NCBI RefSeq assembly: GCF_010681825.2
Contig: NZ_CP066776.1
Coordinates: 2,480,001-2,544,000 of the forward strand
DNA: 64,000 bases
Source of the DNA: Sulfuriroseicoccus oceanibius
GTDB lineage: Bacteria > Verrucomicrobiota > Verrucomicrobiia > Verrucomicrobiales > SLCJ01
Reading direction: 5' to 3'
Below, piece by piece: positions 38,266 through 45,800 of this stretch. Position 1 is the first letter of the stretch. Each line of letters opens with the position of its first letter. Under the pieces are notes generated by a model. The model ran no database searches. It had not been told where the DNA came from and worked only from the letters and a program-made list of their open reading frames with translations. The position numbers and the translations under genes are program-made.

Positions 38266-38279
38266 CTCAGAATTTATTC

Positions 38280-38784
38280 AGACAGGATTAACATGATGGA
38301 CATGATTGGAGCTGCCGGGTTTGCAGCTCTGGATCAGTCCGGAACCAACAGAAACTTCAACGAGTGAACGACCTCCTTACCGAGAAAATTATCGGATGCG
38401 CCATGAAAGTGCACCGGACACTCGGCCCGGGATTCTTGGAAAGCGTTTACTCAAATGCACTCTGCCACGAACTTCGAACGTCCGGAATACAGTCCATCCA
38501 AGAAGATGCCATCTCCGTCGTGTACGACGGTATTGTCGTCGGCGAATTCAAAGCAGACCTCCTCGTTGAAAACCGAATTATCGTTGAACTAAAAGCCATT
38601 GAGACTCTTCACCCAGCTCATGAGGTACAGCTCGTAAACTACCTCACGGCAACCAACATCGAAGTCGGCCTACTCATCAACTTCGGAAGCAGCAGCCTTC
38701 AGTTCAAACGAAAGCACCGCACCTATCGCCCTCATTCTTAAGCACAGGATTTAGTCAATCATGTTCCTCATGTTAATCCTGTCT
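38280..38784. mobile_element. GxxExxY cassette bounded by inverted repeats
   Basis: A 505-base unit inserted between nuoD and nuoE. Its ends are inverted copies: 38280-38308 starts AGACAGGATTAACATGATGG, and 38756-38784 is its reverse complement with 27 of 29 bases identical. It carries one gene (38364-38741). Solo relatives of the ends lie at 10058, 10335, 17172 and 18808. No transposase is inside, so movement would depend on another factor. Confidence 0.6.
38364..38741 (+). CDS. GxxExxY family protein (PD-(D/E)xK-like)
   Basis: A 125-residue protein with the signature GPGFLESVY (GxxExxY) near residue 21 and a nuclease-like core: GEFKADLLVENRIIVELKAI (about 58-78), where the Asp and the ExK pair match PD-(D/E)xK enzymes, then VQLVNYLTATNIEVGLLINFGS. 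The family is widespread, often in repeated copies, with no established function. Here it sits alone inside the nuo operon and inside an inverted repeat, which marks it as an insertion. No terminator in it, so nuo transcription can pass through. Confidence 0.85.
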   Translation: MNDLLTEKIIGCAMKVHRTLGPGFLESVYSNALCHELRTSGIQSIQEDAISVVYDGIVVGEFKADLLVENRIIVELKAIETLHPAHEVQLVNYLTATNIEVGLLINFGSSSLQFKRKHRTYRPHS

Positions 38785-38830
38785 AAAACAAGACCTTTCC
38801 CCGTCACCCGCCAACTTCCCTACCGATCCC

Positions 38831-42678: not shown

Positions 42679-43803
42679 ATGGATCCCACCCTACTCTCCA
42701 TCCTCATCACGCTGGCAAAGATCTTCGGCTTTACCTTTGCCCTGGTGCTGCTCCTCGTCGCCTACTCGGTGTATGCCGAGCGCCGCGTGGCAGCCGCGAT
42801 GCAAGACCGAGTCGGCCCTAACCGCACCGGTCCATTCGGCCTGCTGCAGCCGATCGCCGACGGCTTGAAGTTCGTTCTCAAAGAAGACTTCACACCGGGC
42901 CACGTCCGAAAGTTCTACTTCTGGCTCGCCCCGGCATTGGTCATGGTGCCTGCCCTGATTACCGTGGCGGTGATTCCATTCGGCAGTGAGGTCGCTGTTC
43001 CATGGCTGGAAGAGCCGATCAAGCTGGTGATCGCGGACATCAACGTCGGCCCGCTCTTCATCTTCGCCATCGCCTCGCTCTCGGTCTACGGCATCGTATT
43101 GGCCGGCTGGTCGTCGAACTCGAAATACCCATTCCTCGGCGGCGTGCGTTCGAGCGCCCAGATGATCTCCTACGAGATCTCGATGGGACTTTCGTTGATC
43201 CCGGTTCTCCTCATCATGGGCGAACTCAATCTCAACGACATCGTGCGCTACCAGTCCGAGAACGGCTGGCTGCTCTTCCCAGTGCTGTGGAACCACGAAG
43301 GCTTTTCCACATCGTTGGAAGCATGGGCACTGTGGGTTCCGGCCATGATCGCCTTCATCATCTTCACCGTTTCGATCTTCGCTGAGACCAACCGTACGCC
43401 ATTCGACCTTCCGGAGTGCGAAACCGAGCTCGTTGCTGGTTACCACACCGAGTACAGCTCGATGAAGTTCGCGCTCTTCTTCCTCGGTGAGTACGCCGCT
43501 ATGATCGTCGGATCGGGCTTGATCGTCACCCTCTTCTTCGGTGGCTGGTCTCTTCCATTCGGCTGGGACCAAAGCATCATGGAAGCCAACGGTGGCGCCA
43601 GCCCATGGTGGCTTGGTCTGGCACACGTCGGTGTGTTCCTCGCCAAAGTCATCTGCTTCATCCTCTTCTTCATCGCCATCCGCTGGACCGTCCCACGTTT
43701 CCGCTACGACCAACTGATGAAGCTCGGCTGGGTGATCTTCTTCGAACTCGCCCTGGTCAACATCTTCATCGCAGCGGGCATCAAGATGCTCTTCCGTAAC
43801 TAA
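42679..43803 (+). CDS. nuoH: NADH-quinone oxidoreductase subunit H
   Basis: A 374-residue membrane subunit with about eight to nine helices. Marks: YAERRVAAAMQDRVGPNRTGPFGLLQPIADGLK near residue 31, then AETNRTPFDLPECETELVAGYHTEYSSM near 237, both hallmarks of NuoH; it forms much of the quinone chamber with NuoD and NuoB. Confidence 0.95.
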   Translation: MDPTLLSILITLAKIFGFTFALVLLLVAYSVYAERRVAAAMQDRVGPNRTGPFGLLQPIADGLKFVLKEDFTPGHVRKFYFWLAPALVMVPALITVAVIPFGSEVAVPWLEEPIKLVIADINVGPLFIFAIASLSVYGIVLAGWSSNSKYPFLGGVRSSAQMISYEISMGLSLIPVLLIMGELNLNDIVRYQSENGWLLFPVLWNHEGFSTSLEAWALWVPAMIAFIIFTVSIFAETNRTPFDLPECETELVAGYHTEYSSMKFALFFLGEYAAMIVGSGLIVTLFFGGWSLPFGWDQSIMEANGGASPWWLGLAHVGVFLAKVICFILFFIAIRWTVPRFRYDQLMKLGWVIFFELALVNIFIAAGIKMLFRN

Positions 43804-43845
43804 TCCGGCCGCACTGTCATCCCCACCCATTTCACCTGACTCACT

Positions 43846-44412
43846 ATGGCAACCGTCACAGTCAAACGTCCTAAACTTACCTTTTGGGAGAAGATCTACC
43901 TCCCAACGGTGCTCAAAGGTCTGAAACTCACCCTCGCCCACGCCAAGCGATCGTTCCGCGGCAAGACCACCGGCAAAGAACAACTCAACGCCGGACGCCT
44001 CGGAACCACCATGCAGTACCCGGAAGAAAAGTGGGACGACCACCTTCCCGAGTACTTCCGCGGTGCACCTGCCCTGGTGACCGACGAAGTAGGCCGTGAG
44101 CGCTGCGTCTCGTGCCAGCTGTGCGAGTTCATCTGCCCACCAAAGGCAATCAAGATCGAGCCCGAGGAAATCCCGGCGGATGAAAAATGGTCGAAAGTTG
44201 AAAAGCGCCCGAAGGAATTCGAAATCGACATGATCCGCTGCATCTACTGCGGCATGTGCGAAGAAGTCTGCCCGGAACAGGCTATCTTCCTGCGCAAAGA
44301 CTACGCCATCACCGGCCTCTCCCGCGAAGAGATGGTCCACGACAAAGAGAAACTTTACGAAATCGGAGGCAAACGCGTCGGCCTCGTGAACAAATGGAAT
44401 GAGCTCAAGTAG
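43846..44412 (+). CDS. nuoI: NADH-quinone oxidoreductase subunit I
   Basis: A 188-residue ferredoxin-like subunit with two [4Fe-4S] motifs: CVSCQLCEFICPPKAIKIE (about residues 87-105) and CIYCGMCEEVCPEQAIFL (about 132-149). It hands electrons from NuoG to NuoB. Its stop lies three bases before the left inverted repeat of the following cassette. Confidence 0.95.
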   Translation: MATVTVKRPKLTFWEKIYLPTVLKGLKLTLAHAKRSFRGKTTGKEQLNAGRLGTTMQYPEEKWDDHLPEYFRGAPALVTDEVGRERCVSCQLCEFICPPKAIKIEPEEIPADEKWSKVEKRPKEFEIDMIRCIYCGMCEEVCPEQAIFLRKDYAITGLSREEMVHDKEKLYEIGGKRVGLVNKWNELK

Positions 44413-44415
44413 CAG

Positions 44416-44841
44416 GTAGGCAGTAGGTTGTAGGAAGGGAATCCCTGATGGAGAGCGCCAGATCATTCGAAGACCTCATGGCCTGGCAAAAAGCCCACGC
44501 TCTCGTACTCGAGATCTACAAGATCACACAATCATTCCCCTCCTCTGAGACCTACGGACTCACTTCACAAATCCGCCGCGCGGCCGTCTCCATCGCATCC
44601 AACATCGCCGAAGGCTTCAATCGCTTCTCCCCCACTGAGAAAATCAGATTCTATAACATCGCCGAAGCCTCCGCTGAAGAAGTCCGCTACCAACTCCTGC
44701 TCGCACACGACCTCCAATTCGCCGACACCTCTCACCTCCAAGAACAAGCTACAGAAGCAAAACGACTGATCATCGGGCTCATTAAAAGCATTCGGGCCCG
44801 CAGCTAGTTCCCCTCCCCACTTCCTACTACCTACTCGCTAC
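44416..44841. mobile_element. four-helix-bundle (IVP/S23) cassette bounded by inverted repeats
   Basis: A 426-base unit inserted exactly between nuoI and nuoJ. The left end (44416-44439, GTAGGCAGTAGGTTGTAGG...) and right end (44818-44841, reading GTAGCGAGTAGGTAGTAGG... on the other strand) are inverted copies with about 20 of 24 bases equal. Only one gene is inside. The nuoJ start follows the right end by four bases. Confidence 0.55.
44448..44807 (+). CDS. four helix bundle protein (23S rRNA intervening-sequence protein family)
   Basis: A 119-residue all-helical protein with the family pattern: SFEDLMAWQKAHALVLEIYKIT at the start, YGLTSQIRRAAVSIASNIAEGFNR (about residues 37-60), then EASAEEVRYQLLLAHDL. 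Relatives are encoded in intervening sequences of 23S rRNA genes, and others serve as Avd accessory proteins of diversity-generating retroelements. Function of lone copies is unknown. Not a complex I subunit; its place inside the nuo operon and inverted-repeat borders point to insertion. Confidence 0.88.
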   Translation: MESARSFEDLMAWQKAHALVLEIYKITQSFPSSETYGLTSQIRRAAVSIASNIAEGFNRFSPTEKIRFYNIAEASAEEVRYQLLLAHDLQFADTSHLQEQATEAKRLIIGLIKSIRARS

Positions 44842-44845
44842 TCCA

Positions 44846-45430
44846 ATGGAATCTCTTCTCTTCTACGTCTTCACCGCGATCATGCTTGGCAGCGCGATTG
44901 GTGTGATCGTCAACCGCAACCCGATCAGCAGCGCGCTTTGCCTGGTGCTTTCGTTCGTCGGAGTTGCCGGATTGTTCATTCTTCTCAGTGCCTTCTTCAT
45001 CGGCATCATCCAGATCCTCGTCTATGCAGGTGCGGTGATGGTGCTTTTCCTCTTCATCATCATGTTGCTCGACGTGAATGTGGAAGAGAAGCGCAAGGTC
45101 AACCTCGGTGCAGTCGGCGGTGGTATCTTCATCGCCTTGATCTTCCTCGGCCAACTGCTCTCGGTCGTCGGGGACATCCCGGGCGCCAGCGAGCCTCTTG
45201 CTGACATCGACCACCAGCAGGCACTCGTTGCCCGCACCGAAGCCCGCGGTACCGACGCCATCGATGGCGACCGCATCGCCGAAGAACTCGCCGAAGGCAG
45301 TCTGCCGGACGTCCAGCTTATCGGTGAGGCGATCTTCACCAAATACAACTTCCACCTGCAGATGGTTGGCGTGCTCTTGCTGACCTCGACTGTCGGCGTC
45401 GTGCTCCTCTCGAAGAAGAAGCTTTCCTAA
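44846..45430 (+). CDS. nuoJ: NADH-quinone oxidoreductase subunit J
   Basis: A 194-residue membrane subunit with five hydrophobic segments: FTAIMLGSAIGVIV, ALCLVLSFVGVAGLFILLSAFF, IGIIQILVYAGAVMVLFLFIIMLLDV (the conserved 'YAGAVMVLFLFVIMLL' block of NuoJ), GGGIFIALIFLGQLL and a last helix MVGVLLLTSTVGVVLL. Part of the proton-pumping arm. Confidence 0.93.
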   Translation: MESLLFYVFTAIMLGSAIGVIVNRNPISSALCLVLSFVGVAGLFILLSAFFIGIIQILVYAGAVMVLFLFIIMLLDVNVEEKRKVNLGAVGGGIFIALIFLGQLLSVVGDIPGASEPLADIDHQQALVARTEARGTDAIDGDRIAEELAEGSLPDVQLIGEAIFTKYNFHLQMVGVLLLTSTVGVVLLSKKKLS

Positions 45431-45485
45431 CCACGCCGCGAAGGCCACTCCGTTCATTCCAGATTTTCATCCCACTCCTTTCACG

Positions 45486-45800
45486 ATGACCTTAGCCAAC
45501 TACCTGATCGCCTCCGGTCTTCTTTTCACCATCGGATTCCTTGGTGTCTTCGTTCGCCGCAACATCATCGTCGTCTTCATGTGCCTGGAGATGATGCTTA
45601 CCGCGGCCAACATCACACTCGTTGCGTTCTCGCGCTTCAACGGAACCCAGGGCCTGCCAAACTTGGACGCCCAAACGCTGGTCTTCTTCATCATCACCGT
45701 AGCCGCAGCCGAAGTCGCCGTCGGTCTCGCCATCATCGTGGCGCTCTACCGCGCCAAGCAAAGCATCCACACCGACGACATCCAATCGATGAAGGGCTAA
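45486..45800 (+). CDS. nuoK: NADH-quinone oxidoreductase subunit K
   Basis: A 104-residue subunit with three membrane helices. FLGVFVRRNIIVVFMCLEMMLTAANITLVAF holds the conserved Glu (about residue 37), and AAAEVAVGLAIIVALYRAK the second conserved Glu (about 73); both take part in proton transfer. Standard length. Confidence 0.95.
   Translation: MTLANYLIASGLLFTIGFLGVFVRRNIIVVFMCLEMMLTAANITLVAFSRFNGTQGLPNLDAQTLVFFIITVAAAEVAVGLAIIVALYRAKQSIHTDDIQSMKG

Follow-up and report, generated by a model that had tools for sequence, protein, structure and literature searches.

The window, the whole 64-kb stretch of DNA analysed here, comes from a single-contig genome of 3.50 Mb. It carries a cassette of ∼435 bp between nuoI and nuoJ whose single gene is of the IVP/S23 kind, flanked by inverted ends built of degenerate heptamers. 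The features at the locus are:

43846–44412, + strand: nuoI, the upstream host gene, recognized from a ferredoxin-like sequence and from its position within the nuo operon
44408–44441, + strand: left inverted end, with heptamers AGTAGCA, GGTAGGC, AGTAGGT, TGTAGGA and the partial unit AGGGAA; the nuoI stop codon (44410–44412) lies within it
44448–44807, + strand: IVP/S23 four-helix-bundle gene, intact, 119 amino acids, matching profiles PF05635 and TIGR02436
44808–44842, + strand: right inverted end, reading from the outside in AGTAGCG, AGTAGGT, AGTAGGA, AGTGGGG and AGGGGAA
44846–45430, + strand: nuoJ, the downstream host gene, matched once in almost all relatives from the order

In profile searches the IVP protein scored 126.8 bits against PF05635 (cut-off 33.8; profile positions 1–104 of 106) and 125.7 bits against TIGR02436 (cut-off 24); by this whole-length match over curated cut-offs it is a member of the 23S_rRNA_IVP protein family. 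Its nearest named relative is in a Rubritalea MAG. The core of the inverted ends, 44416–44437 against 44820–44841, is complementary at 19 of 22 positions, and the full heptad-periodic arms are ∼34 nt each (44408–44441 and 44808–44842). The left end begins within the last codons of nuoI and takes in the TAG stop of that gene; on the other side, the nuoJ ATG follows the right end after three bases. An identity of at least 0.75 at lag 7 over 35 nt is reached in the 64-kb window only by stretches of the right arm. The profile scores and the complementarity, together with the class-wide statistics given below, confirm the preliminary description of an IVP gene with inverted ends between nuoI and nuoJ.

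From the ORF list and the profile search, the cassette has no transposase ORF, the IVP gene being its sole ORF. It does not lie in a 23S rRNA gene, its location being nuoI–nuoJ, and an Rfam scan of 43800–45500 found no group I or group II intron core, the one hit being a chance snoRNA match (E 0.5). In the predicted RNA fold of the cassette the two ends pair as a terminal stem (z −2.26), so that sequence and predicted fold together give terminal inverted repeats with a predicted closing stem. This pairing is predicted to set the nuoI stop beside the nuoJ start and would explain how an insert is tolerated in operons. A stem is what lets 23S rRNA carry an intervening sequence (IVS) (PMC4990558), and the stem predicted in the mRNA may be its counterpart.

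Inverted heptad ends and their coupling to the IVP protein

IVP loci were gathered from many phyla, from the phylum of the window and from plasmids, and 105 of them had both flanks. Inverted ends were called where the best inverted flank-to-flank match scored at least 14; the controls were 268 windows offset to other positions on the same contigs, together with direct-orientation matching of the 105 loci. Inverted ends were found at 82 of the 105 IVP loci versus 3 of the 268 displaced controls, with direct-orientation matches at 12 of the 105; with extra loci added, the count of inverted ends becomes 97 of 128. The pattern is far beyond chance for the IVP class, about a fifth of the loci in the 105-locus set having no clear inverted ends. 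Two proteins over the Avd cut-off also had none.

Among the 82 loci with inverted ends, the best repeat lag is 7 or 14 in 74 and 8 in another 6. The letters of the heptamer vary from locus to locus (GTAGGAA, AGAATCC, AGTGCTG and GGAGACC are examples) while the period is constant. The arrays have a median length of 31 nt and mostly hold 3–5 units; because their lengths vary, a strict rule of five heptamers per arm was rejected as suggestive at most. Left arms are G-skewed in 74 of the 82, which may simply reflect the ribosome-binding sites of the IVP genes.

To compare ends with proteins, end similarity was expressed as a 4-mer cosine and set against the protein identity of IVP pairs. The cosine is about 0.07–0.10 for pairs with less than 50% protein identity, 0.15 at 50–60%, 0.42 at 60–80% (33 pairs) and 0.90 above 80% (11 pairs, some of the closest being the same site in related records); a Mantel test of end similarity against protein relatedness gave p 0.001. 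Two groupings cross phyla, subject to the contamination caveat that attaches to single MAG cases: an IVP from a Fibrobacter MAG (AGAATCC ends) and one from Planctomycetota (CAGGAGA ends) both group with Nostocales plasmid IVPs, whose ends are of the AGAAGTC or AGGAGTC type. The sequence comparison indicates that the end tracks IVP protein relatedness, across phyla too. In same-site cassettes whose IVPs are 50–80% identical, ends match their own partners better than crossed ones (16.1 versus 12.1, p 0.0026; 17 pairs, not all independent). The cleanest same-site pair, from genomes G000 and G002, has 14.5 and 17.5 for own ends versus 7.5 and 7.0 for crossed ends, and the two ends of such cassettes appear to have changed in concert. 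That the ends follow the IVP protein supports the earlier view of a discrete inserted cassette of which the ends are part.

The window genome has seven IVP loci, mostly with differing ends, and not all of them have clear ends. One of the seven genes (genome positions 2582050–2582352) contains a TAG stop within its reading frame; another IVP cassette is found at a distance of 3 kb, and both have TTAAAC-type ends. A genome search for the end sequence of the nuoI–nuoJ cassette found about 22 AGTAGC-type sites, so the end is not unique, as the preliminary description expected, but neither does it always bracket an IVP gene, about 20 of the sites having none. GTAGG-type ends are not shared by all IVP genes: this type is specific to the window's IVP subfamily and is mostly gene-less in the window genome. 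Among the gene-less AGTAGC sites are hairpins that separate tRNA genes within rRNA operons, and single ends located just a few bases beyond a gene. A pattern search with GTAGGNAGTAGGNNGTAGG gave 38 matches in the window genome against 47 for the reversed-pattern control, no excess, and a longer AGTAGC pattern was likewise not above its reversed control (31 matches on one strand). Because the pattern counts are no higher than the controls, the claim of dispersed ends draws on inspection of the sites (extended consensus and contexts), from which ends without an IVP gene appear to have spread too.

Several other repeats were seen in the same genome. Several rRNA operon copies (at 630770, 1634042, 3117295, 3374230 and 3450831) have a short gene-less AGTAGC hairpin separating their two spacer tRNA genes. 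Near-perfect GTAGGAA tandem arrays lie at 1460162–1460229 (about 9 units) and 1962113–1962145 (about 5 units), without an inverted partner and without an IVP gene. The 31 one-strand matches of the reversed control pattern (GGATGNNGGATG...) are possibly another heptamer array.

A cassette with a different gene lies between nuoD and nuoE:

38277–38307, + strand: left inverted end of the GxxExxY cassette
38364–38741, + strand: GxxExxY (PDDEXK_3) gene, PF13366 144.3 bits, TIGR04256 153.9 bits
38757–38787, + strand: right inverted end of the GxxExxY cassette

GxxExxY cassettes of this one design are found at 38277–38787 of the window and at loci L008–L014 and L188–L216. Inverted ends flank 31 of 36 genes of this PD-(D/E)XK-like type versus 2 of 72 controls; they have a period of 9 in 18 of 34, often start with an AACCAC-like sequence and have no skew. 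Co-occurrence of IVP and GxxExxY genes among 195 genomes has an odds ratio of 10.7 (uncorrected for phylogeny). Neither cassette encodes a known mover. The idea that the two share a design stands, with the same architecture and co-occurring families, but that of one common mechanism is not supported: the period (7 versus mostly 9 nt), the start and the skew of the ends differ, and recognition therefore differs.

Filled and empty sites in plasmids and operons

Pairs of sites with and without a cassette were found mainly in cyanobacteria. Site A is filled in plasmids of Trichormus and Scytonema and empty in 97%-identical ones of Aulosira, Nostoc and Fremyella, which read AAAAAGTAATTAACAAATAATT-ATG. 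The insert, roughly 410–430 bp long, is flanked on either side by GTAAT; in Nostoc C052 a decayed remnant of the cassette is left. Sites D and E are in homologous operons X-Y-Z on pNsp_a/pC052_D and on pNsp_c. The IVPs of the two operon copies belong to different subfamilies and differ in their heptamers; one is inserted at X-Y and the other at Y-Z, and the sites are reciprocal, each being empty in the other operon copy. The cassette at Site B separates cas10 from cmr3 in Picosynechococcus PCC 7003, the site being empty in PCC 7002. The Site C cassette is inserted into the 3′ end of a gene, where the junction supplies a new in-frame stop codon. Elsewhere a ∼182-bp element that has the same ends and no IVP gene lies within an IVP gene and interrupts it. 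The empty plasmid sites have no heptamers whatsoever. A clear target duplication (GTAAT, 5 bp) is seen at Site A only, the remaining sites being ambiguous. Since near-identical plasmids have filled and empty sites, reciprocal ones included, the ends and the IVP gene go in as one unit in cyanobacterial plasmids.

A scan of 50-kb plasmid stretches for further events returned Site A only, other indels being without heptamer ends. Near-identical cyanobacterial plasmids also differ in GC-rich insertions of 27 and 48 bp, again without heptamer ends, which may be small dispersed repeats.

The window's IVP/end subfamily occurs at nuoI–nuoJ in G000 and G002, at nuoJ–nuoK in G063 and at nuoL–nuoM in Rubritalea. 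Most relatives examined have no IVP gene at nuoI–nuoJ, the junction often being a few bases, so that the empty junctions that the preliminary description proposed to look for are common; a target duplication at nuoI–nuoJ is not resolvable, as no close relative has an empty site. Taken together, the nuo operons of G002, G063, G094 and Rubritalea have IVP genes at nuoI–J, nuoJ–K, nuoK–L and nuoL–M. IVP genes are apparently commoner in nuo operons than their copy number, which ranges from 0 to 18 per genome, would predict. Other conserved sites, with apparent names taken from translated neighbours, are atpA–atpG, gltB–gltD, lysA–dapA, gmd–fucose synthase and wzm–wzt; annotated sites are cas6–cas4 and a suf operon.

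Where both neighbours run the same way, 58 IVP genes are in sense and 6 antisense, a count made from crude ORF calls in which the window's own case was wrongly entered as antisense. The dN/dS ratio is 0.06–0.20 in most IVP pairs, and about 0.18–0.20 for the window IVP against its G002 and G063 relatives; these sequence ratios indicate that the IVP protein is under purifying selection and matters.

Nature of the element

The best reading is a widespread class of mobile element related to the 23S rRNA intervening sequence. For the nuoI–nuoJ cassette we consider it probable that this is an IVP/S23 insertion element, with ends of about 4–5 degenerate heptamers, that works through a looped-out RNA, targeting by a ring protein, and a nuclease or recombinase acting in trans. 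Comparison of loci shows that elements of this family insert mostly in sense at stop/start junctions inside operons. Its ends are predicted to pair in the polycistronic RNA, so that the IVP gene loops out and the upstream stop meets the downstream start. The IVP homologues 2gsc and 2rld gave crystals with five chains each, and a pentamer of four-helix bundles has been published for the family (Lin 2006, as cited in PMC3936711). A pentameric IVP ring may bind the ends of its own element in the form of RNA or single-stranded DNA, with each subunit taking one heptamer, and may steer the element to transcripts or operon joints; the array length is compatible with one heptamer per subunit, which it fits and does not prove. 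Cutting and joining would fall to a host or trans-acting nuclease or recombinase. Several points count against the insertion-element reading. The element lacks a catalytic enzyme and no trans-acting one has been identified; a clear target duplication is confined to one site and the arms are not strictly five heptamers; about a fifth of IVP loci lack clear ends, and heptamer repeats are found elsewhere with no reported link to IVP.

The absence of an enzyme from the cassette, its inverted ends, the 5-bp duplication at Site A and the IVP-less elements with the same ends would all suit a MITE-like passenger, whose ends are read by an ordinary transposase in trans while the IVP gene hitch-hikes. 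We regard this as unlikely, though deserving real weight: across phyla the heptad ends vary together with the IVP protein, a coupling that recognition by a foreign transposase would not require, the sense bias is strong, and no transposase with such ends was met among the loci read (an incidental, non-systematic observation). Sense bias can also be claimed, with the folded RNA, for movement like that of a retroelement, in which a reverse transcriptase in trans copies the transcript with IVP as an Avd-like cofactor. IVP has homology to Avd, a protein of diversity-generating retroelements (DGRs) (PF22296, 27.1 bits, below the cut-off), and co-occurs weakly with RVT_1 (odds ratio 3.6). We find this improbable, as neither the window genome nor 12 of the 28 genomes that have 8 or more IVPs gave an RVT_1 match, which leaves room for past movement elsewhere. 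Because these genomes have no RVT_1 match, residence does not depend on a reverse transcriptase in trans, and as a strict necessity such an enzyme is contradicted by the IVP-rich genomes among them.

Generic heptamer arrays might instead be a landing platform on which IVP genes merely end up, given that heptamer repeats, inverted pairs included, abound in Xanthomonas and cyanobacteria and that the window genome has gene-less ends. The empty plasmid sites without heptamers disfavour this, as does the agreement of ends within IVP subfamilies and their difference between them, and we hold it very unlikely. Purifying selection, long residence at atpA–atpG, gltB–gltD, lysA–dapA and nuo, and the overlap of the ends with stop and start regions would be expected of a host regulatory module, the cassette being a fixed regulator of its operon; this idea is hard to credit against the unrelated operons, patchy presence, empty orthologous junctions and copy numbers that vary so widely among genomes.

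Known systems and significance

What S23 intervening sequences are, and whether and how they move, has been an open question since the early 1990s. The IVP family and the rRNA IVS are already known, and separate reports exist of IVP genes at cas loci and of heptamer repeats; a link between IVP/S23 and heptad ends, or filled and empty operon sites, was not found in the subset of open-access papers searched.

The 23S rRNA IVS of Coxiella is 428 nt with an S23/IVP ORF; its horizontal acquisition is thought likely and it has been termed selfish (PMC4990558). The cassettes resemble it in protein family, similar size, one ORF and stem-forming terminal inverted repeats, but lie in operons between protein genes; their ends are heptad-periodic and coupled to the protein, and their sites occur both filled and empty. 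The ends of rRNA IVSs lay outside the comparison, none of 20 fetched loci being a 23S rRNA-embedded IVP. In REPIN/RAYT systems, too, a gene has inverted repeats, gene-less copies are dispersed, and ends and protein vary together (PMC3116915). The IVP cassette ends are likewise dispersed without the gene (about 20 sites, some of them hairpins), but IVP is not a Y1 (HUH) transposase, its ends are heptad arrays rather than a short palindrome, and its gene travels with the ends.

Heptamer repeats have been described as GGGAATC in Xanthomonas and GGGGA(C/T)T in Nostoc (PMC4692102), and as TAACTGA in Beggiatoaceae (PMC4679880). These are also degenerate 7-nt tandems, often intergenic and in Xanthomonas often in convergent inverted pairs; PMC4692102 and PMC4679880 do not mention IVP/S23, whereas here the heptamers form the termini of a gene cassette that has inserted. 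The 18 IVP-family genes reported in cas loci, with the motif GxxRxxxSxxxNxxE, were presented as having a CRISPR-Cas-associated function (PMC3936711). Two cas-locus IVPs here have inverted heptad ends, and the cas10–cmr3 site is empty in a close relative; from their sequences, those examined look like insertions into an operon. The DGR accessory protein Avd is a distant homologue and also a pentameric four-helix bundle, but the window cassette has neither a reverse transcriptase nor template and variable repeats. The IVP cassette differs from insertion sequences and DNA transposons in encoding no transposase. With respect to MITEs, the cassette itself has a gene, and elements without the IVP gene share its ends. 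If IVP drives movement, this would be a new kind of element.

More tentatively, and short of calling it probable, we suggest that a non-enzymatic ring protein reads its own ends in a 7-nt register and enters operon joints via transcripts or single-stranded DNA, that GxxExxY cassettes are a second such class and that many heptamer repeats are relics. If this ring-protein reading is true, the folding ends would make the element nearly invisible to its host operon. The 7-nt register, the end–protein coupling and the natural filled/empty pairs are direct handles on S23 elements. IVP genes in cas operons gain a candidate explanation other than association with CRISPR, IVP elements are a possible source of some unexplained heptamer repeats, and caution is warranted in annotating IVP and GxxExxY genes by guilt by association. 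The findings suggest that the rRNA IVS cases represent one form of a common element that invades operons.
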